DNA of 64,000 nucleotides from positions 1-64,000 of the forward strand of contig JAACMV010000019.1 of assembly GCA_010909725.1 (NCBI GenBank), given 5' to 3'. The notes beneath the pieces are model-generated. The model saw only the letters and a list, made by a program, of their open reading frames with translations, did no database searches and was not told the DNA's origin. This DNA comes from Picochlorum sp. 'celeri' (taxonomy: Eukaryota; Chlorophyta; Trebouxiophyceae). This document shows positions 6,053 through 35,885 of the stretch, one piece after another. How positions within the stretch are numbered: the stretch's first letter is position 1; each line of letters begins with the position of its first letter. Both the position numbers and the translations under genes were made by a program.

Positions 6053-7512
6053 GAATAGGCACTAGGAAGAGCTCGGGCGAAAGCGCTCCGCTGATTGGGT
6101 CTTCTTCTCTTGGCCAGGTGCAGGCGTCTGACGCTGCGCTGCAGGAGGAGAGATGCGTGTCATTTTCCTGGGAATTCTCTTCAATCTATCCGGTGGCGAT
6201 ATTCTGCATCACGTCGGCCCTGCTGTTTGCGGACCAGAATTTGATGGCTCCCAATCTGACTGAGATTGCCAAATCGTTTGGATTCGATGATCACGAGAGG
6301 GACAAATATCTAGGGGGCTATATTGGCGCTGCATTTTATATTTTTGGTGCTCCAGCTGCCCTGGTGTTTGGGTATTTGTCCCACTTTATGAGCAGGCGCT
6401 TGCTCTTTCTGGTTGCTGTGCTGCTTGGGGAAGGCCCTTGTCTGTTGACGATATTTGTGTCACAGTACTGGCAATTATTCATCCTACGGCTTTTGACGGG
6501 TATCTCAATTGGAGGCTGCTTGCCTCTCATATTCAGCCTGCTGAGTGACATGTATGTGCACAGGCATAGGTCTCTGGTGTCTGCTGTCGTGCAGGTTGCT
6601 GTGGGGGCGGGAATCGCTGCTGGGCAGGGCGTGGCGGGATATGTTGGCCCGGCGTTGGGGTGGAGGTGGCCCTTTGTTATTGTGGCTGTGCCGGCTATCG
6701 TGTCAGCGCTCTTGATGTACGCGACGACCCAGGAACCAGAGCGAGGGGCCACAGAGGAGGCATTTCAGAGGGAGAATCGGGACAAGAAGCACCACTACTC
6801 GTACGATGCCGAGCTCAGTATGAAAAAGATTGGGATTTTAATGTCGATCCGAACGAATATCTATTCTATAGGGCAAGGGCTCTTTGGGTGCCTTCCCTGG
6901 GGAATGCTTCTGACCTTTCTGAATGACTATCTTGCCCAAGAGAAGGGGCTGTCAGTGTCCTCAGCCACCTCCCTCGTTTTGGCCATTGGGATTGGGGGTG
7001 CGTTCGGCGTTATTGGAGGCGGTGCAATGGGACAGTTTCTGTACAATAAAAGCCCGCGATTGATGCCAGTATTCATCGGGTCATCCACTGTGATGGGAAC
7101 CTTTCCCATGTGGTATCTTGTCAAAGGGGATGTGAAGCAGCACTATAGCATGTCCTTTTTCTTCGCCCTGCTGAGTGGCATGTTGAGCAGTACCGTCGGA
7201 CCAAACGTAAGGGCGATGATCATGAATGTGAATGAGCCCGAAACGAGAGGTGTTGCATTGGCCTTGCAAACCACACTGGATGACCTGGGAAAAGGGCTTG
7301 GACCAGCCATTGTCGCATTCATGATTTCAGGCCTTGGGAGAGAGCGCGCTTTTTTCTGGGCCACAGCTGGATGGATCCCATGTGGTCTTATGCTGATTGT
7401 CATATTTCGATTCTTAGAAGATGACGAAAGAGCAATGCAACACCGGCTGCAGCGAGGCTTGTCGGAGCAGGATGCCCCACACGTCTTGGAAATGGAGTCT
7501 CTCAATGAATGA
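6049..7512 (+). CDS. MFS transporter, spinster-like
   Basis: An intronless gene of 487 residues with about twelve predicted membrane segments in two halves. The first half has the MFS inter-helix loop at about residues 105-118 (GYLSHFMSRRLLF), though the usual acidic residue is replaced. The stretch from YVHRHRSLVSAVVQVAVGAG to GWRWPFVIVAVP is typical of the family. A charged central loop lies around 230-255. The second half ends with NEPETRGVALALQTTLDDLGKGLGP, which resembles spinster/SPNS-type lysosomal lipid or sugar exporters. The cytosolic N-terminus carries SAPLIGSSSL, which could act as an endolysosomal or vacuolar sorting signal. The substrate cannot be read from sequence. Confidence 0.85.
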   Translation: MRIGTRKSSGESAPLIGSSSLGQVQASDAALQEERCVSFSWEFSSIYPVAIFCITSALLFADQNLMAPNLTEIAKSFGFDDHERDKYLGGYIGAAFYIFGAPAALVFGYLSHFMSRRLLFLVAVLLGEGPCLLTIFVSQYWQLFILRLLTGISIGGCLPLIFSLLSDMYVHRHRSLVSAVVQVAVGAGIAAGQGVAGYVGPALGWRWPFVIVAVPAIVSALLMYATTQEPERGATEEAFQRENRDKKHHYSYDAELSMKKIGILMSIRTNIYSIGQGLFGCLPWGMLLTFLNDYLAQEKGLSVSSATSLVLAIGIGGAFGVIGGGAMGQFLYNKSPRLMPVFIGSSTVMGTFPMWYLVKGDVKQHYSMSFFFALLSGMLSSTVGPNVRAMIMNVNEPETRGVALALQTTLDDLGKGLGPAIVAFMISGLGRERAFFWATAGWIPCGLMLIVIFRFLEDDERAMQHRLQRGLSEQDAPHVLEMESLNE

Positions 7513-7529
7513 ATTCCTACAGATTTTTT

Positions 7530-8624
7530 TTAAAAATATACCATGTTACACACCATAGGCATAATTACAGGTTCCAAGGCAAATCTAGACAAGAAGTAGA
7601 ACAGCGTGGCAAGAGCCACACTGATTGGCAACGCTGGGAGGGCCCTTCTCGAGATTGAGAGCCACAAGAGGGTGCACCCCAGGCCAGCCAAGATGGCGAC
7701 AAAACATGCAGCCGTCGTGAGTGCATCGAACATTGCTGCTCGACCAACCAAAACTGAATAGAAAATGAAATCTCCGAGGCCCAATTTGATGCCACTCAGC
7801 GAATGTTCATGGCCATCGGCCTCTTCTACCTGAACAAGAGGCTCGCTGTCTTCTTCTCCGCCCTCCTGTGGCCGAGGGCTCGACATTCCCGCGCCTTCCT
7901 GCTCTGGCACAACAGCATGGTCAGTTTCTATTCGTTCTCGAGACACATTCTTCGATGTGGACGGCCTTGATTGATACACAAGCGCTGGAATGTCCTCGTC
8001 CCTCTCCTCCGCAAGCTCCACCAACTTTTTCAGTGGGCCCACATCCACCAGAACAGCAAACAAGTCATACGCAGACATACCCAGCAATAGAACCCATGCC
8101 GTCCATTCTGGTATAAAGGTGAAAATGTAGGCCACGGAGCAAGAAAGGACGATCAAATATGTCTGTTTGAGCAGCAAGGGTGCTGGCATGGCAAAGAGAG
8201 TGACGCCGCCAACAAGTGCAAAGTTTGTGAGGAGGATGACGAAAGAAACCCAGTCCACACCAATCTCAGCCCTTTGTAACAGTTCTAAAATGATAGCACC
8301 AGAAATCACAAAAAATGTCGTAAACCCCGAGAATCCCAAGTAGTAAAAAATCCACTTGGTATACCCATGCTTGAGCAGCAGGACAAGCCCGTAGGTCATG
8401 GCAGCAACAATCACCACAAACGCCATGGCATTGATCATGGACCCTTCAAATTTCGTCCAAATTGAATCCGAGGCATCCTCATGGTAGTAAATCGATGCAA
8501 TGTACACCGCATCAGCGTTGCTCCTTCCAACGGGGTTGAGCGTCTTGACCAGGAAGACTGTAAGCAACATGCAGACGGACACAGGGAAGCACAATCCCGT
8601 CACCCCCTCTCCCAGATTCTCCAT
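7530..8624 (-). CDS. PSEN: presenilin (intramembrane aspartyl protease)
   Basis: A 364-residue single exon and the catalytic subunit type of gamma-secretase. Both catalytic aspartates are present: D187 in SAYDLFAV (the YD motif) and D285 in KLGLGDFIFYS (the GxGD motif). The PALP motif is at 330-333. Nine membrane segments are expected, six before and three after a large polar loop (about 205-275) that is rich in Glu, Ser and Pro. The N-terminus is short compared with animal presenilins. In plants and algae, presenilin has reported protease-independent roles as well as membrane proteolysis. The gene converges on the MFS gene with a gap of only 17 bp, so their 3' ends probably overlap. Confidence 0.95.
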   Translation of the reverse strand: MENLGEGVTGLCFPVSVCMLLTVFLVKTLNPVGRSNADAVYIASIYYHEDASDSIWTKFEGSMINAMAFVVIVAAMTYGLVLLLKHGYTKWIFYYLGFSGFTTFFVISGAIILELLQRAEIGVDWVSFVILLTNFALVGGVTLFAMPAPLLLKQTYLIVLSCSVAYIFTFIPEWTAWVLLLGMSAYDLFAVLVDVGPLKKLVELAEERDEDIPALVYQSRPSTSKNVSRERIETDHAVVPEQEGAGMSSPRPQEGGEEDSEPLVQVEEADGHEHSLSGIKLGLGDFIFYSVLVGRAAMFDALTTAACFVAILAGLGCTLLWLSISRRALPALPISVALATLFYFLSRFALEPVIMPMVCNMVYF

Positions 8625-9033
8625 ATCTTACGTATTCACAATACTCATGCGCATGATCAGCGGTATCTCTCTATCTCTCTCTCAGCAGATATCGTTCCAT
8701 GGCCTGGCAGTCCATTCAAACCCACCCAATGTCGAAATCGCAATCAGCACCACCCAAACCTGGTATCAATATTTCTTAATTATTAATTTATGGTACGCAC
8801 TGACGCCACTCAGGAACAAGTGCCCGAATTTGACCAGGGTGGTGCCATTGGCGATGCATGGCTCGAATGATCCAGAGCGGTCTGGCTGACATATGGATGA
8901 CCCAACGGATCTCAGATCATTCATAATACTAGTCATATGGTTGCTTGGGATACTGCGAGATTGCCAGAGCTGTCTGTACTGCGAGACAAGACAGCAACAA
9001 AGTCTACTGACTGACTCTCTTGGACAGAGTGGG
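8625..9033. other. divergent intergenic region presenilin/ARL2
   Basis: About 400 bp between two divergent genes, with a short TCTC run at about 8665-8685. No conserved gene or RNA is seen. It presumably holds both promoters. Confidence 0.5.
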
Positions 9034-29174: not shown

Positions 29175-29536
29175 TTTTGTTATCTTGAAGAACGTATACA
29201 AATTGATGAGTCTGTGCAATTTTACTGATTTATCAGAGGGCCATCATGGCTGGCATCGACGCCTTTGTCCTCGCATCCAGGGCATGCTGTCGAAAATTCT
29301 ACGACTGCCTCCTATCAAAGGGACCCTTTGAAGGGATGAAAATGCCTCATTCCCAGAGGTGGTGGATGCAAACCAGTCTGCATTGGAGGCCTCTACTACC
29401 ATGGAGAGAGCATGACTCCTGGCGGCAGAAGCTTCTTGAGAAGAAAGAGAGGCCTCGCTCAGTCGAAAATGGTGATACTTCTTTATATTACACGTGCATG
29501 GTCAAAATGCAATGACAGAAGCAAAACAAGATGAAT
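29175..29536. other. intergenic region upstream of aldolase
   Basis: About 360 bp between the aldolase start and the phytoene synthase stop, both on the minus strand. GTATAC on the minus strand about 25 bp before the aldolase ATG may serve as TATA element. An open plus-strand frame here has no family resemblance and is probably chance. Confidence 0.45.
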
Positions 29537-30781
29537 CTACTTTGACACTTTGATCGGCACTCTGGCAGCCATGAGTGCTAGAGGTAAACTGGCCAACTTT
29601 CTCCACTTTGGAACATAGGCTCTCTTTGTGAAATTATTGTATTCGTTGACTTCTATACCATCCAGAATTTGGCGATACAATATCAGGGCTGACCATACTG
29701 GCCACCGAGCATCAGCATCGAGCAGGTTCACTCCTGCCTCAGCCTCCGCAAAGTAATCTCGAGCTCTCTGGATCTGGAACTGCATGAATGCACGCCATCT
29801 ATCGTCTATCTTCCCAGTTGTTGGTGCAAACATGCCACGCAATACTTCGTCCTCTGAGATGCCAAACTTGTCCAGTTCATCCAGAGGGAGATACACTCTA
29901 GACCTGGTCATGGCATCCTCTCCAACATCTCGAAGAATATTTGTCAGCTGGTTTGCTGTCCCTAACGCTAATGCCGCCTTATAAACTGGCTCTAATGGTC
30001 CCTTGTACGTAGGATCGACTCCCATGACTGGTGTGCTCATCAAGGCCACAGTTCCTGCCACGCGATAGCAATATTCGTATAATTCATCATAGTTTTCGTA
30101 TCTGTTCTTGTATAGATCCATTCTCATTCCTCCGATCATATCACGGAAAGGCTGGATATCCACGGGGAACTTGGTCAATGTGTCCGTAAGTGTGGCATCT
30201 AGGGAGTCATATGGGCGCCCATCAAACAGGGCTTCCAGCCTCTCCTCCCACCTGTCCAGTGCTGCGGGGGTGATTCTCGCGGAATTTGGCCCATCAACTA
30301 ATTCGTCTGTTCTTCTGCACCAGACGTAGATCGCCCAAATAGCACGCGCTTTCTCTGGTGTCATGAGTTGTGTTCCTAGGTAAAATGTCTTTGCATACTC
30401 AGAGGTTACCTCTCCTGACCTCGAGTAGGCCTCCTCCAACATCTGCCCCGACCATTTATGTGAAACTGGCAATCCATTTGGAAAAGCTTTGTGCAACTCG
30501 ATCTGAGACCTCGTGGCTGCAGCCTCAATTTCATGCCCAGACATTGGTTGTGTCACTGGAACTTTCCCACTGCTCGCAGGTGACGAAGGTGTGCTCGACG
30601 ATACTTTGGCTGCTGCTGCTGATGTCTTGCGAGTTTGGGAATCTTTCGAGCCACTCCCACCCACCGATGCAGATGCGCATTGGACTCTCCTCCCCACAAG
30701 GGCACACGACCTGCTGGTGAAGCCGGGTCTACAGTCTAGAGCCCCGTGCATAGACATCGATATCGGCAATGCATGTGCCAT
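29537..30781 (-). CDS. PSY: phytoene synthase
   Basis: 414 residues, intronless. The first about 75 residues are Ser/Ala/Arg-rich and plastid-transit-like. The two prenyl-diphosphate motifs are [12 protein letters not shown] and [17 protein letters not shown]. The segments [20 protein letters not shown] and [16 protein letters not shown] are standard for the squalene/phytoene synthase fold. The enzyme joins two geranylgeranyl diphosphates to phytoene, the committed step of carotenoid synthesis in the plastid. It is followed on its promoter side by the Fanzor locus. Regulation cannot be read from the upstream sequence. Confidence 0.96.
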
Positions 30782-31733
30782 CCTCCTATTAAATAGTCTC
30801 TAGACGCAGATGGATAGTGCCAAATCCCGTTTCAGGACAGAAATCCAGAACCTGTTATCCTGTTCTGACGGACTCACTCCTTGAGGCTTCGACGCGTATC
30901 TTCTGCAAAACGACATGAGACTGGTGAGTTGACGCACATTGTATTCCACATAGATGAAATAATATTTCTAAGAGGGTGCATCGGACAATGGGCAAAGACG
31001 AGCCAGGTACGTCACCGTTGGGGGCGGTGCAAACGTTACTCGAGTGCACGAGGCAGGCCTCTTTTACATACCTAATGATACCTCTCAAATACGAAATGAA
31101 AATAAAACCTCGATAATTGGTTCTAAGCCAACGCCATCGATCAATCAATTCTCAAGTCACTGGATCGGTCATGGAGTTGATATGCTGTGACAATTCCTGT
31201 CAGGCTCGGTTTTTTTTTTTTTTTGTGAGAATTATCTCGTCCCAAACTGACGTCTGTCAACGGCATCTCGCGAAGAAACATAGCTTCACTGGGGTAGGCT
31301 ACTACAGTAACGATAGTATAGACTCGGACGACGACTGGCGTGGTCGTGCGTTTCCGACCCTTGGTCTCGTCGTCTCGTATTATCAAAGTAGTAGAGTTTA
31401 TATACGAATTACAGTTCCATAAAAGGACCGCCGGTGCTGTTGTTGCTGGGCGTGCGGTTGGTTGTTGAGTTGAATACCAGTTGTTGTTGTTAGTTTTTTG
31501 CACGGGCGTTGACCCAGCAGCTCTGATCAACGCCCGTGGAGGCCGCGCGCTGATCAGCCGAGCCTGTTCGGACGGTTACAGAGACAACTATTGCACACAC
31601 AAGGTACGAATCCCATACAGACATGAAGGACCACGTTTGATAGCAAGGGAGTTACGATCAGTTTCCTTGTGTAGGTGACAAAAAAACCGTGGCGCGTGTG
31701 TGAGGAGGAAGAGATAAAAATACGGTAGTGCCA
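30782..31733. other. intergenic region between phytoene synthase and Fanzor
   Basis: About 950 bp that must contain the phytoene synthase promoter and the 5' flank of the Fanzor gene. It holds an isolated exon-like start (ATG at 30988 followed by a GTACGT donor at 31007), a T15 run at about 31210-31224, a 12-bp perfect hairpin (31501-31538) and a GCTGATCAGC palindrome (31549-31558). There is no other protein gene. Confidence 0.5.
31501..31538 (+). other. 12-bp perfect hairpin upstream of Fanzor
   Basis: CACGGGCGTTGA (31501-31512) pairs perfectly with TCAACGCCCGTG (31527-31538) around a 14-nt loop, about 195 bp before the Fanzor ATG. It could be a terminal structure of the element, part of a guide-RNA scaffold, or a regulatory hairpin. 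Confidence 0.55.
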
Positions 31734-34700
31734 ATGGAAAAAGGGTTCGTTAATCAAGGTCCTATCGTCGCAACATCGACGCCTGGAGGGGAGGCTCCCC
31801 ACATGGTGTGTGATGCCCCAACAGGGTCCAGACCTACAGGAGACCACAGGAAAGAGGCAAAATTCAGGACTGAAAAGTTAGGTCTCTATAGAAAAACACG
31901 GGGGAAACAGAGTAAATACGCGCAAGAAGTGAGGAAGGTGATAAAACCTGGATCTCTGGGCGGGTATCAAGACCACAACCGTAAGAACAAGGGACAGTGG
32001 AGGGGTATTGCTCGCACATCCAGAACCAAAGAGCTTCTGTATGACACGGCCACGATGGTGGGCCACATATCCGTCGAAGCCACCCAAGCTGCTCACTACC
32101 ACGTGTACCGATGCCTCGAGGAAGGTATTGATCTGGGGAAGATGGATTACAACAATTTTTGGAACTACATCTTTGATGCCATCAAAGACCTCAGGTATGG
32201 GGACGGCCTCAAACAGGACATCAGGACACCCCTGTACGACTCGCTCCGACAGTATGCAGAAGAGGCTCCACTACCTCAGGCAGGAGAGTCTCTGAGATGG
32301 GACGTTGACGGTCACACGGCCTGGCGTCGGCATTGCCTCAAAGCTGCGGCGGATGCAAAGGCTCAGAATTTGCACATTATTCTGCACCACAATGCGTATC
32401 ACAACCTTTGCAAGATTGTCAAGGTTCGGCTTGCACGCACCTTTGGGGCACGGTACGCGGATGACTTTCGTTCTTTGGTGTCTGCCGTTGCCGCCGCTGT
32501 GTGGGAGGACGTGGATTTCCGTGGTGTGAAGGAAGGGTACGACAGATTGAAGAATCTAACCGAGGAAGAGGTCCGAGACATCCAGGAGACAATCGTCAAC
32601 CCTATTCGGGAGAAATTCCCGGATCAGGAAGGCCGAAAGGAAAATGCCAAGATGATGGAATTCGTGCACTTCGTTGCGGGTGAGGTGATGGAATACAACC
32701 GCCACCGTTCTGAGCAGTCCGGCCCGGGGAGCCCACCGCAGGCCATCGAGTTAGTGAATATATGTGTAGGAGAAAAACTGGCGGTGGCCATTGAGCGAGA
32801 TTTGAGGAAAGGATCGCTCACTAAGAAGGAGTTTGTCCACCACGTGAAGCATGCGCTGGACATATTCCGACAGTGTTCTGGTCCAGACTTGTTCACCACC
32901 CGCACGGACCAGGGATTCCGGAGTGGGGACAACGGACAACGTGTCGTGGACCGAAACGACAGGTATCGGGGACAAATTTTGTGCCTTCTGTCGGAGAGGA
33001 TTCTGTACCAGAGTCAGAAGGGTGGTGCCGAATTCCTGAGCCAAGACCAAGTGGGTTGGATCGATGGCATCTCGTCTGAACTGCGCCTCCCTTCGTCCTT
33101 GGCCGACTACGACATGACCAAGAATGATTTTGCCGACTATATGGAGAGGGTCATTCTGCCCAAGCTCCGCTCGTCGTTCTTGTTCGTTGCTCCGAGGAGA
33201 GGCAACGATGCAAAGGCCCCATGGGGAAAGCGAATCCAGGTGCCGTCCGTCCTCCCCCTGGCAAAGAAGAGGGCCTGTCATATCAGCATTCCGAATGTGG
33301 CTATCACCGGCCTCGCAGAGGGCCTGGCACTGGAGTGTAGTGACATTGCTGAAGCGATACACGGCCCCCAGGAGACACTGCGCGAGGCACGACAAAGGGT
33401 GAAGTCAATCGAGTCGAGAATCGTGGACATGGACAAAGAAAACTGGTTGACCGACGAGCAACAGAAGGTTAAACAGGAACTTGACGAGAATAAGAAAAAA
33501 AGCAAGCTCGAATTTGAGCAGACCCCGACTGGAAAGCGGCACCGGTACAAGAAGTCTGACAAGGAAAAGAAGCTGTGCAAGGAAGTGACAGACAGGAAGA
33601 ACGCGTTATTGAATGGCAGTCAAGAGTACTTGGATGCTCGAGAAGAAGTGGAAAAGGCTGCGTTGCGGTATCAAGAGTGCTGTTGGACGGCCCTGTTCAA
33701 TATCAAAGTCAGAAGGTGCCAAAACGGACACCAGTGGCTGTTTGGAGGGCAGCTGTCCACGGACGGTGTCGACGTGTCGATGCAGTATTATCGTCTGAAG
33801 ACGGACGACGAAATTCGTGCCGACGAGGAGGAAAAGGAAAGGATAAAGGCCAGGGCGGCGGAGAAGGCGACGGGGTCTTCGACAGGAAAGCCGAGGAAGC
33901 GAAAACGAACGAGTAGGGCGGGGCCAGGCACCCCGCAGTCCTCGAATGTCTCCAGTCGAGGGAATCTGGACAGAGCAAAAGACCTGCTGGCCGCATCGCC
34001 CGACAACGCATGGGTCTTCGATCCAGGGCCCGATGGCCACGTGGGCATCAGGCTGGAGCAGGGCAAGATGAGGGAGCTCTGCCAGGAGAACAAGCGACAC
34101 GGGGACTACGACCCGTTCGAGACGATGAGCCTGACCAACCACGAGATGCAGTCGCGTGCGGGCATCCTCAAACGAAAGGCGCTGGAACGGGCGTGGTCGC
34201 AGGCCAGGCCAGGCATCGGGGCATGGAAACAGGAGGCACCCACCAGAAAGGTCGGAACAGCAAGGGATATGTTGGCGTTCTGCAGAACGACCAATAGCCA
34301 CCTGAACACGGTGTATGGATTTTATTCCCAGAACTGTTTCCGGAGGCAAAGGTTCTCTGTGTACACGAGGACGCAACGAATGCTGGACTCCATGGTTGAA
34401 CGGATCTGCGGGACGAAGGACAGGGAGGCTCAGAGCAAGACCGTCGTTGTATTTGGGGACGCCTCGATCAACTCGGGGAAGCACGGAAAACAGAGGGTCT
34501 GCTTTCGGGCCCTCAAGGACCTGCTGCGGCAGAGGTGCTGTTTCATCGAGATTGGCGAGTTCCGAAGTAGCCAGTACTGCTGTGCCTGCCATGCCAAATT
34601 GGAGGACCCCCCCGCGGTGGGGCTTCACAAGCGCTGGAAAGTACGCCGTTGTATGAACAATGGATGTGAGCGTGCTTTCTGGCAACGAGACGTGAATGCA

Positions 34701-34808
34701 GCCATCAATCTCGCCAAGTTTTTCCTGTGGGAACTCAACGGCGAGGAGAAACCAACAGTCTTCCAAAGGCCTCGGACACGAGCAGAGGAGGACATCCCCG
34801 ACGTGTGA
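31734..34808 (+). CDS. Fanzor RNA-guided nuclease (eukaryotic TnpB relative)
   Basis: A single intronless frame of 1024 residues. The C-terminal third is a TnpB/Fanzor RuvC nuclease: FDPGPDGHVGI carries the first catalytic Asp (D763), FIEIGEFRSSQYC the Glu (E942) and QRDVNAAINLAKF the last Asp (D986). Between the last two lies the zinc ribbon, CCACH...CMNNGC. VVVFGDASINSG is the usual strand before the ribbon. The long N-terminal part (about 760 residues) includes a lysine-rich coiled-coil stretch (about 545-640) and a basic, nuclear-localisation-like run (KPRKRKRTSR). Length and layout fit Fanzor1 rather than the shorter IS607-linked Fanzor2. Related proteins cut DNA with a guide RNA encoded next to the gene. 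ATG at 31734 is chosen because upstream in-frame codons soon meet TGA (31701). Codon use seems more G/C-rich than in the neighbours. Confidence 0.93.
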   Translation: MEKGFVNQGPIVATSTPGGEAPHMVCDAPTGSRPTGDHRKEAKFRTEKLGLYRKTRGKQSKYAQEVRKVIKPGSLGGYQDHNRKNKGQWRGIARTSRTKELLYDTATMVGHISVEATQAAHYHVYRCLEEGIDLGKMDYNNFWNYIFDAIKDLRYGDGLKQDIRTPLYDSLRQYAEEAPLPQAGESLRWDVDGHTAWRRHCLKAAADAKAQNLHIILHHNAYHNLCKIVKVRLARTFGARYADDFRSLVSAVAAAVWEDVDFRGVKEGYDRLKNLTEEEVRDIQETIVNPIREKFPDQEGRKENAKMMEFVHFVAGEVMEYNRHRSEQSGPGSPPQAIELVNICVGEKLAVAIERDLRKGSLTKKEFVHHVKHALDIFRQCSGPDLFTTRTDQGFRSGDNGQRVVDRNDRYRGQILCLLSERILYQSQKGGAEFLSQDQVGWIDGISSELRLPSSLADYDMTKNDFADYMERVILPKLRSSFLFVAPRRGNDAKAPWGKRIQVPSVLPLAKKRACHISIPNVAITGLAEGLALECSDIAEAIHGPQETLREARQRVKSIESRIVDMDKENWLTDEQQKVKQELDENKKKSKLEFEQTPTGKRHRYKKSDKEKKLCKEVTDRKNALLNGSQEYLDAREEVEKAALRYQECCWTALFNIKVRRCQNGHQWLFGGQLSTDGVDVSMQYYRLKTDDEIRADEEEKERIKARAAEKATGSSTGKPRKRKRTSRAGPGTPQSSNVSSRGNLDRAKDLLAASPDNAWVFDPGPDGHVGIRLEQGKMRELCQENKRHGDYDPFETMSLTNHEMQSRAGILKRKALERAWSQARPGIGAWKQEAPTRKVGTARDMLAFCRTTNSHLNTVYGFYSQNCFRRQRFSVYTRTQRMLDSMVERICGTKDREAQSKTVVVFGDASINSGKHGKQRVCFRALKDLLRQRCCFIEIGEFRSSQYCCACHAKLEDPPAVGLHKRWKVRRCMNNGCERAFWQRDVNAAINLAKFFLWELNGEEKPTVFQRPRTRAEEDIPDV

Positions 34809-34883
34809 TACAACGGAAAACACTACAGTCACATAGCTATATGCATATGATGTACGAATAAGTACTATTATAGAGCTTGCTCA

Positions 34884-35885
34884 TCACCGAAGCTTGTACT
34901 CCTGCTTACCATGCCACGATCCCTCTCCATTCGATAGCTGGTATTCGATATTGATGTCTAGATCCCTTGGGTTCTTCTGATTTGGGCCTGAAGACAGAGT
35001 GACCATGATGGAATCCCCTGGGTTGACAATCAGGGTGTCCTTCAAGTAGAAAACAGTCTGCTTCCAATGCGTGGATGTTGCTCTCGGCGATGTTGAAAAT
35101 CCAATAGGCTTGTGACAGTCATTGAATATCACATCAAAGTATGCTACGAACGCATGAACGTAGTCCTTCCTCGTTACTGGAATCCTGAAAGACGACGTGA
35201 ATGCTGCATCCTCCTTCTTCATTGTCTTGATATCGAATCTGGCCATGACCGCTGGTTGTGAGCAAATTTGATTCGGCTCCACAATGTCCACGAGGGGCTC
35301 CATCATGGCAACTTTTCCGATGCAGTCCATATTAAAACCATATACATTGCTCCACCAATCAATCTTCTCATTCTTGTACTCCCCATCTTCGATGGCGACC
35401 ATGTGCAAAACTGCTGTATCAGGAAATACGAGTCCATCTGGCTTGAGCCACTTGTCTCTGGCGTAAATTACCGTGTCCAACATGCTTTCGTACAGCAGAA
35501 AGTATCCCATCCACTCTGATATGATAATATCAACCTTCTCCGGGAGACTGACGTCCTCCATTTTCCCCTTGATGATTGTCACTCTATCTTCATACCCGTT
35601 GTTCCTCACAATTTCTTTGGCAGAGTCCGCGATGGCAGACATATCTATGCCATAGACGTGCCTGGCCCCTGCTTTGGATGCAAACAGGCTCAGGATCCCT
35701 GTCCCGCACCCAACATCCAAAACAACTTTATCCTTAAATATGTGACTATTGTTGAGAATTGAGTTCATGTATGTCTTCGTTCTAACTTCATCTTTGAGCA
35801 TCTCCTCGTGAATTCCGAAATGCCCATAGGAATCTGCGTAATAGTCAGCAGCAGTGAGCTCTTCTACGTTCGATGCATCACCCAT
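34884..35885 (-). CDS. PRMT1: protein arginine methyltransferase 1
   Basis: 333 residues from the ATG at 35885 (MGDASNVEELTAADYYADSY). SAM-binding motif I is VVLDVGCGTGILSLFASKAG, and the double-E hairpin is SEWMGYFLLYESMLDTVIYARD. The THW loop is present as STHWKQTVFY. The order and length match type I PRMT1, which makes asymmetric dimethylarginine on RGG proteins and histone H4 R3. The RGG protein GAR1 in this window is a plausible kind of substrate (inference). It is intronless and convergent with the Fanzor gene, with 75 bp between stop codons. Confidence 0.97.
   Translation of the reverse strand: MGDASNVEELTAADYYADSYGHFGIHEEMLKDEVRTKTYMNSILNNSHIFKDKVVLDVGCGTGILSLFASKAGARHVYGIDMSAIADSAKEIVRNNGYEDRVTIIKGKMEDVSLPEKVDIIISEWMGYFLLYESMLDTVIYARDKWLKPDGLVFPDTAVLHMVAIEDGEYKNEKIDWWSNVYGFNMDCIGKVAMMEPLVDIVEPNQICSQPAVMARFDIKTMKKEDAAFTSSFRIPVTRKDYVHAFVAYFDVIFNDCHKPIGFSTSPRATSTHWKQTVFYLKDTLIVNPGDSIMVTLSSGPNQKNPRDLDINIEYQLSNGEGSWHGKQEYKLR

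Follow-up and report, generated by a model that had tools for sequence, protein, structure and literature searches.

Gene and element at the locus

We analyzed the first 64 kb of contig 19 (C19; C numbers denote contigs) of the green alga Picochlorum sp. 'celeri', a stretch called the window here, in which a gene assigned to the Fanzor nucleases lies on a 3.7-kb element. C19 is 1.19 Mb long, and the genome examined comprises 27,412,692 bases in 30 contigs. The phased diploid assembly described for Picochlorum celeri (PMC7225527) totals 27.43 Mbp, with 15 scaffolds in each of its two sets. We infer that C19/C11, C10/C16, and C14/C18 are pairs of homologous chromosomes. The Fanzor gene has a phytoene synthase gene on one side and an arginine methyltransferase gene on the other. 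Its frame was open from a GTG at 31728 (ATG at 31734) to a stop codon ending at 34808, and 1024 codons were counted from the ATG without interruption, as an earlier note on this DNA had described. This frame was likewise open on C11, in an allele with 99% identity, and on C14, in a copy with 58%. Because it was open in both copies, and because the proportion of synonymous differences (pS) between C19 and C14 was 0.80 versus 0.28 for nonsynonymous differences (pN), the frame did not arise by chance. The main features are the following.

31170-34872, plus strand: Fanzor1 element, 3.7 kb, left end sharper than the right (from comparison of the C19/C11 and C10/C16 copies)
31734-34808, plus strand: Fanzor1 coding frame, 1024 residues, uninterrupted (from the open-frame list, alleles, and alignment)
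33759-33767, plus strand: TDG motif of the Fanzor1 WED domain, residues 676-678
33888-33917, plus strand: basic cluster KPRKRKRTSR, residues 719-728, seen in the sequence, which we take to be a possible nuclear localization signal
34020-34022, plus strand: putative catalytic D763 (RuvC-I, DPG), aligned with SpuFz1 D383
34557-34559, plus strand: putative catalytic E942, the displaced ("Ealt") glutamate, six residues ahead of the ribbon, aligned with SpuFz1 E541
34578-34667, plus strand: C4 zinc ribbon C949, C952, C973, and C978 (TNB domain), within a PF07282 match
34689-34691, plus strand: putative catalytic D986 (RuvC-III), aligned with SpuFz1 D606

Assignment to Fanzor1

The earlier note had placed the protein among the TnpB/Fanzor nucleases, with D763 in FDPG, E942 in GEFRSS, D986 in RDVNAA, and a ribbon of C949-x2-C952 and C973-x4-C978. 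All of these residues were found where it had put them, and the assignment held for a full-length Fanzor, with both a profile and the predicted fold matching solved Fanzor1 structures. A homology search with words from the C-terminal part (residues 640 to 1024) found 12 relatives, P0001 to P0012; a full-length search and a six-sequence profile search, with scoring confined to the 7994 candidates that had the most words in common, found P0001 alone. The window protein, five other frames of the genome, and these 12 relatives were aligned. D763 and the TDG motif were present in all 18 proteins, and E942, C952, C973, C978, and D986 were each present in 17, P0001 ending before them. C949 was present in 16 (P0012 has a proline, and P0001 lacks the region). 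According to the Pfam scan, residues 934 to 993 matched PF07282 (Cas12f1-like TNB) with an E value of 8e-5 and 23.1 bits, below the 26.3-bit cut-off; in a six-frame scan, the match reached 27.7 bits, above the cut-off. The TNB model was matched by 16 of the 18 proteins at an E value of 0.01 or less. The sole NCBIfam match (E value, 0.41) was to an unrelated family and far below the cut-off.

We then compared the alignment profile with solved structures. It matched SpuFz1 (E value, 1.4e-24), GtFz1 (1.3e-23), and PpFz1 (2e-14), and also, weakly, N-terminal stretches of SpuFz1 and GtFz1. The earlier note had asked whether the D/E/D residues align with the RuvC active site in a structure model. 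In the profile alignment they did: D763, E942, and D986 were aligned with D383, E541, and D606 of SpuFz1, the offset of the fusion-chain numbering being a constant 394 at all three. D383, E541, and D606 are the catalytic residues given for SpuFz1 (PMC11423790). Single-sequence PDB searches gave nothing convincing, either with the window protein (Guillardia Fanzor1 at an E value of 5.7) or with a 783-residue Fanzor of the same genome. The predicted model of the window protein had a predicted local distance difference test score (pLDDT) of 69.1 and a predicted template modeling score of 0.63, and both aligners placed the solved Fanzor1s at the top of its PDB matches. These fold alignments began at residue 62 to 64 and covered 519 to 546 residues. 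The list of structural matches contains Foldseek's own candidates only, and a family missing from it proves nothing. In the predicted model, the two-lobed Fanzor1 fold is present. Among predicted viral structures, there were 19 matches at an E value of 0.001 or less, the best being a Gaeavirus protein called a transposase (3.6e-17); therefore, giant-virus proteins share a Fanzor-like fold.

DPG, the displaced glutamate, and TDG, which lies in the WED domain, are described as marks of Fanzors and Fanzor1s (PMC10711439). No recombinase (IS607 serine) was found in the element: frames outside the gene had at most 129 residues, and four of the other frames (408, 214, 129, and 101 residues) had no Pfam match over the cut-off. 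IS607 is also reported absent from some Fanzor2s (PMC10711439). The TDG motif and the fold ranking favor Fanzor1 over Fanzor2; the missing IS607 alone is not decisive. Judged by its sequence, the gene product is a genuine Fanzor1, a eukaryotic relative of the CRISPR nuclease Cas12 and a known kind of enzyme. It resembles SpuFz1, GtFz1, and PpFz1 (8gkh, 9cer, 9cf0, and relatives) in the positions of the triad, the displaced glutamate, the C4 ribbon, the TDG motif, and the fold. It differs from them in its length and in two extra insertions, and its third catalytic position is an aspartate, whereas GtFz1 has an asparagine there (PMC11423790). Nuclease activity, which the earlier note had inferred, is suggested by the intactness of the gene and by past selection only.

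A clade of long Fanzor1 proteins

D763 is preceded by 762 residues, compared with 382 before the corresponding aspartate of SpuFz1. Most Fanzor1 proteins are given as 600 to 700 residues long (PMC11423790), and the window protein is larger than most known Fanzors. Two insertions were located.

32628-33209, plus strand: clade-specific insertion 1, residues ~299-492, helical (from the alignment and a standalone model)
33390-33656, plus strand: clade-specific insertion 2, residues ~553-641, long helices in the model (from the alignment)

Most members of the long clade, but no more than 3 of the 12 shorter relatives, had the stretches 299-359, 369-442, 452-459, and 475-492 of insertion 1, and 553-608 and 616-641 of insertion 2. 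Two metagenomic proteins, P0002 and P0003, had most of both insertions. A maximum-likelihood tree of 17 of the 18 proteins (P0001 left out; 331 columns) placed the window protein, its C11 and C14 counterparts, P0002, and P0003 in a single clade with 100% ultrafast bootstrap support; the 783-, 809-, and 857-residue proteins of the genome fell in a separate clade (99%).

The earlier note had regarded the N-terminal 760 residues as free of nameable motifs and as possibly including new target- or RNA-binding modules. The first idea did not stand: the TDG motif lies in this part, the fold alignment starts near its beginning, and the weak profile matches to SpuFz1 and GtFz1 fall there. As to the second, insertion 1 folded alone gave a pLDDT of 46.5 (5 sequences), on which a new module cannot be claimed. 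A Pfam scan of insertion 1 in the C14 protein gave no match, and that in the window protein gave only a ribosomal S13 match below the cut-off (18.2 versus 31 bits).

The nearest named protein is P0001, the hypothetical protein M9434_000408 of Picochlorum sp. BPE23, which is not named a Fanzor. It is 96% identical to the C14 copy over 748 residues and 53% identical to the window protein; as deposited, it has 759 residues and stops shortly past the first catalytic aspartate. P0002 (948 residues) and P0003 (949 residues), of the same clade, are 43% and 41% identical to the window protein over the C-terminal 385 residues and lack its N-terminal extension.

Copies and selection

The bounds of the element were defined by blastn of the window against 17 loci. 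The C19/C11 and C10/C16 copies had 31170-34872 in common (96% identity) and, in the stretches compared, no similarity beyond. Both haplotypes thus carry the 3.7-kb element at two loci that are unrelated to each other. A 601-base query from its 5' part found only four places (these two loci), and the three other copies began at the same base. The C10 and C16 copies, 96% identical, each had one extra homopolymer base that shifts the frame. The runs concerned are of A and C, and neither shift is found on both haplotypes; the extra bases may be sequencing or polishing errors or may be real. Errors are possible because the published assembly is described as polished with long reads only (PMC7225527).

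The C14 copy (58% identical) was open, and its gene was missing on the homologue C18. We considered C18 as an empty site and rejected this, because C18 lacks the gene yet still has the element's final ~110 bp and a 5' part that has diverged. The flanks of the C14 Fanzor were 94 to 98% identical between C14 and C18, and the 5' part of the element only ~70 to 83% (L042 versus L056). C18 is an allele that either decayed or was replaced by a diverged copy. C-terminal fragments of Fanzor were also found on C3/C23, C4, C27, the ends of C18 and C14, and C15/C27, and a decayed piece of the element was recognized by eye on C8/C17. A comparison of Fanzor loci within the strain, which the earlier note had called for, therefore revealed a multicopy element: besides the two loci on both haplotypes, there are a third copy of 58% identity and several C-terminal fragments.

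Over 994 codons, pS between C19 and C14 was saturated, and pN was well below pS in all six blocks, including the insertion region. This indicates purifying selection between the two lineages, hence a protein that long remained functional. For the C19 and C11 alleles, the ratio was 0.39 on 20 changes and exceeded 1 in one block with 3 changes; these changes are too few for the sequences to show constraint on today's copy.

An antisense frame of 408 residues without a Pfam match was seen inside the Fanzor gene (window 33606-34832, minus strand). ATG-started antisense frames of 328 to 395 residues were open in C11, C10, and C16, and none of 150 residues or more was listed inside the C14 gene. The 408-residue frame is probably a shadow of codon bias.

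Other Fanzor families in the genome

The genome holds at least four Fanzor families, the 1024-residue type of the window and types of 783, 809, and 857 residues. The 783-residue Fanzor1 lies on an element of ~2.57 kb with 20 near-full copies of 98 to 100% identity, 17 with a full 5' end and 3 shorter (L053:2887-5477 and 19 others, e.g., G000:C29:12996-15571 and C22:1203103-1205678). Among the 18 copies with a computable distance, 14 were within ~70 kb of a contig end. A single copy was tested for a terminal inverted repeat and had a strong one, with 0 of 2000 shuffles as good. This family looks recently mobile from its sequences and is a likelier candidate than the window element for a currently mobile system. 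The 809-residue Fanzor1 (L047:3626-6055, minus strand) lies 266 bp downstream of a gene for a 790-residue protein with a DDE_1 transposase domain (6322-8694, minus strand; E value, 4.8e-13), and together they may constitute an autonomous Fanzor transposon. The L048 allele has its transposase split over two frames and no listed Fanzor frame of at least 250 residues. The fourth type, a divergent Fanzor1-like frame of 857 residues (L049:2296-4869, plus strand), has D, E, D, and TDG conserved.

Element ends and a candidate guide RNA

The noncoding parts of the element contain the following features.

31188-31202, plus strand: small left-end hairpin TGACA-N5-TGTCA, weak (64 of 200 shuffles fold as well)
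31501-31538, plus strand: 12-bp perfect inverted repeat with a 14-nucleotide spacer in the 5' noncoding part (z, -3.95)
34803-34834, plus strand: 7-bp stem GTGTGAT/GTCACAT across the stop codon, a candidate part of a guide-RNA scaffold (from nine 3' ends)
34827-34848, plus strand: conserved 22-base right-end motif AGTCACATWGCTACATGCATAT, with one mismatch in the window copy
34849-34872, plus strand: copy-specific 3' tail, whose predicted hairpin does not exceed chance (equaled by 227 of 500 shuffles)

At up to 2 mismatches, the right-end motif occurred at 13 places in the genome and its reversed control at none. Since the 5' part occurred at only 4 places, right ends outnumber left ends. An excess of right ends is also described for the Fanzor1 elements of Chlamydomonas (PMC3627910). 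No target-site duplication was found at C19, C11, C10, or C14, a 5-nucleotide match at C11 being judged to be due to chance.

As a separate observation, on C2/C22 the right-end motif and a hairpin-prone tail directly followed the stop codon of another gene (L065:313-400, corresponding to G000:C2:111262-111349). The C terminus encoded by this gene resembles a DNA-repair metallo-beta-lactamase (Pfam E value, 0.0012, below the cut-off).

The stem across the stop codon was kept in 62 of 63 cells of nine aligned 3' ends, with a loop of 9 to 26 nucleotides. The first stem of three solved Fanzor1 RNAs is also given as seven base pairs (PMC11423790). Together with the conserved right end, the stem is a candidate part of the guide RNA (omega RNA), as judged from these alignments.

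Proposed mode of action and alternatives

Taken as a whole, the locus probably encodes a Fanzor1 RNA-guided DNA endonuclease carried on a nonautonomous transposon. The evidence for this consists of the family, the catalytic residues, the spread to two loci, the purifying selection, and a conserved 3' end that starts at the stop codon. The class of nuclease is assigned by homology; guide, target, and outcome would be those suggested by the family. Fanzor1 would be the only recognizable gene of the transposon, and a transposase supplied from elsewhere would move the element. The 3' end would be transcribed as omega RNA, with the DNA immediately to the right of the element serving as the guide. 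The protein-RNA complex may then cut element-free copies of the right flank, on the other haplotype or at a site left by excision, and repair off the element-bearing chromosome would restore or spread the element.

Several results limit the case for the guide RNA and for homing. No compensatory change was found in the stem across the nine sequences, and one of its arms is under coding constraint. Folding energies were unexceptional (z, -1.43 and 0.19 for two stretches of the window and -2.21 for C14). Synonymous constraint from an RNA overlapping the gene end was not visible in the last two blocks (245 codons), where pS was 0.84 and 0.67. Finally, that both haplotypes carry the element at two loci and that a remnant faces the third copy is compatible with homing, yet old insertions would be just as likely to give this pattern.

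The carrier might be a Helitron2-like rolling-circle element, as in the Fanzor1s of Chlamydomonas, a tentative idea that concerns the mover and is compatible with an RNA-guided endonuclease. The features given for the Helitron2-like model are asymmetric terminal repeats, a 3' hairpin, no target-site duplication, and many 5'-truncated copies (PMC3627910). CRe-1, CRe-2, and CRe-3 of Chlamydomonas reinhardtii, likewise a green alga, have many 5'-truncated copies with intact 3' ends; they have multi-exon genes and ends like those of verified Helitrons (PMC3627910), whereas the window element has a single open frame. The overabundance of 3' ends, with the 5' part at 4 places (2 loci) and the right-end motif at 13, agrees with such a carrier, as does the distance of ~24 bp between the motif and the right end. 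The hairpins of the tails agree in part: the numbers of shuffles as good, out of 500, were 12 for C2, 37 for the C18/C14 ends, 42 for C8, 56 for C14, and 95 for C10/C16, but 227 for C19 and 407 for C27, the last two being no better than chance (seven lineages; by allele, 37 for C14e, 95 for C16, and 69 for the C18 interior). DNA folds of the element ends were also no better than chance. The terminal inverted repeats of the 1024-residue Fanzor element were not significant against shuffles, with 290 (C11 left end and window right end), 62 (C10), and 107 (C14) of 2000 as good. Helitron Rep genes are present in the genome, but none of the 13 right-end sites was near any of the 8 Rep matches.

The Rep domain matches lie at G000:C10:646694-647242 and 7 other places, two of them in one 1674-residue open frame. 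These loci are a possible source of the moving enzyme.

It is also conceivable, though unlikely, that the gene is Fanzor1 derived but no longer cuts under RNA guidance, being either an inert relic or a gene kept for another role, such as regulating transposition. The small number of copies, the frame-shifting base in both the C10 and C16 copies, the missing C14 gene on C18, the truncated fragments, and the little recent constraint between alleles (0.39 on 20 changes) would fit a loss of cutting. However, the catalytic and ribbon residues are intact in C19, C11, and C14, pN is far under pS in every C19-C14 block, and the frameshifts may be sequencing errors, given the A and C runs, the single haplotype affected in each case, and the long-read-only polishing. 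Prokaryotic contamination by a TnpB or a Cas12 has a negligible chance: the TNB ribbon is common to Cas12f and TnpB, but the gene lies between phytoene synthase and arginine methyltransferase on a 1.19-Mb contig, Fanzor1 folds rank first in the structure search, no relative was found in scans of viral and prokaryotic contigs with two short long-clade patterns each, which distant relatives could escape, and no closely and regularly spaced repeat family of a CRISPR array was seen within 31000-35050.

Relation to described Fanzors

In the green alga Auxenochlorella, a Fanzor element is reported as the most abundant repeat, with diverse Fanzors occurring sporadically among green algae (PMC12633428); therefore, algal Fanzor transposons as such were already known. 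No description of Picochlorum Fanzors was found in the available portions of the literature on Fanzor/TnpB with Picochlorum or on algal transposons, and neither "Fanzor" nor "TnpB" occurs as a term in the SENEW3 genome paper. The locus adds a distinct clade of large Fanzor1s (~950 to 1024 residues) with full-length, conserved members in an alga. With its at least four families, and with flanks and both haplotypes readable, the genome offers a usable setting for studying what Fanzors do for transposons. A table in PMC10820777 reports Cas9 editing in P. celeri, and a native Fanzor would thus be testable in its own host.

Inversion next to the element

29488-31171, no strand assigned: phytoene synthase segment, inverted on the other haplotype (C11), with a breakpoint at the element's left end

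One breakpoint of this inversion matched the left end of the element to within ~3 bp. On C11, one junction contained a 68-bp copy of 29314-29381 (98.5%) and the other ~260 bp, part of which matched C24 at 96%; 29488-29531 was partly duplicated. The fillers suggest that C11 has the derived arrangement, whereas the left-end sequences, ATGCATG in C11 and C10 and GGTCATG in C19, suggest the opposite. The inversion may be an assembly error; from its junction sequences, it looks like the repair of a chromosome break at the left end of the element. We regard as improbable a more far-reaching scenario, in which the window protein would represent an undescribed subfamily of large Fanzor1s, the first green-algal lineage to be recognized, its insertions would add a function (e.g., contact with a host factor or a longer duplex), and breaks left by its cutting at the element's own ends would reshape subtelomeric haplotypes, the inverted phytoene synthase segment being an example.

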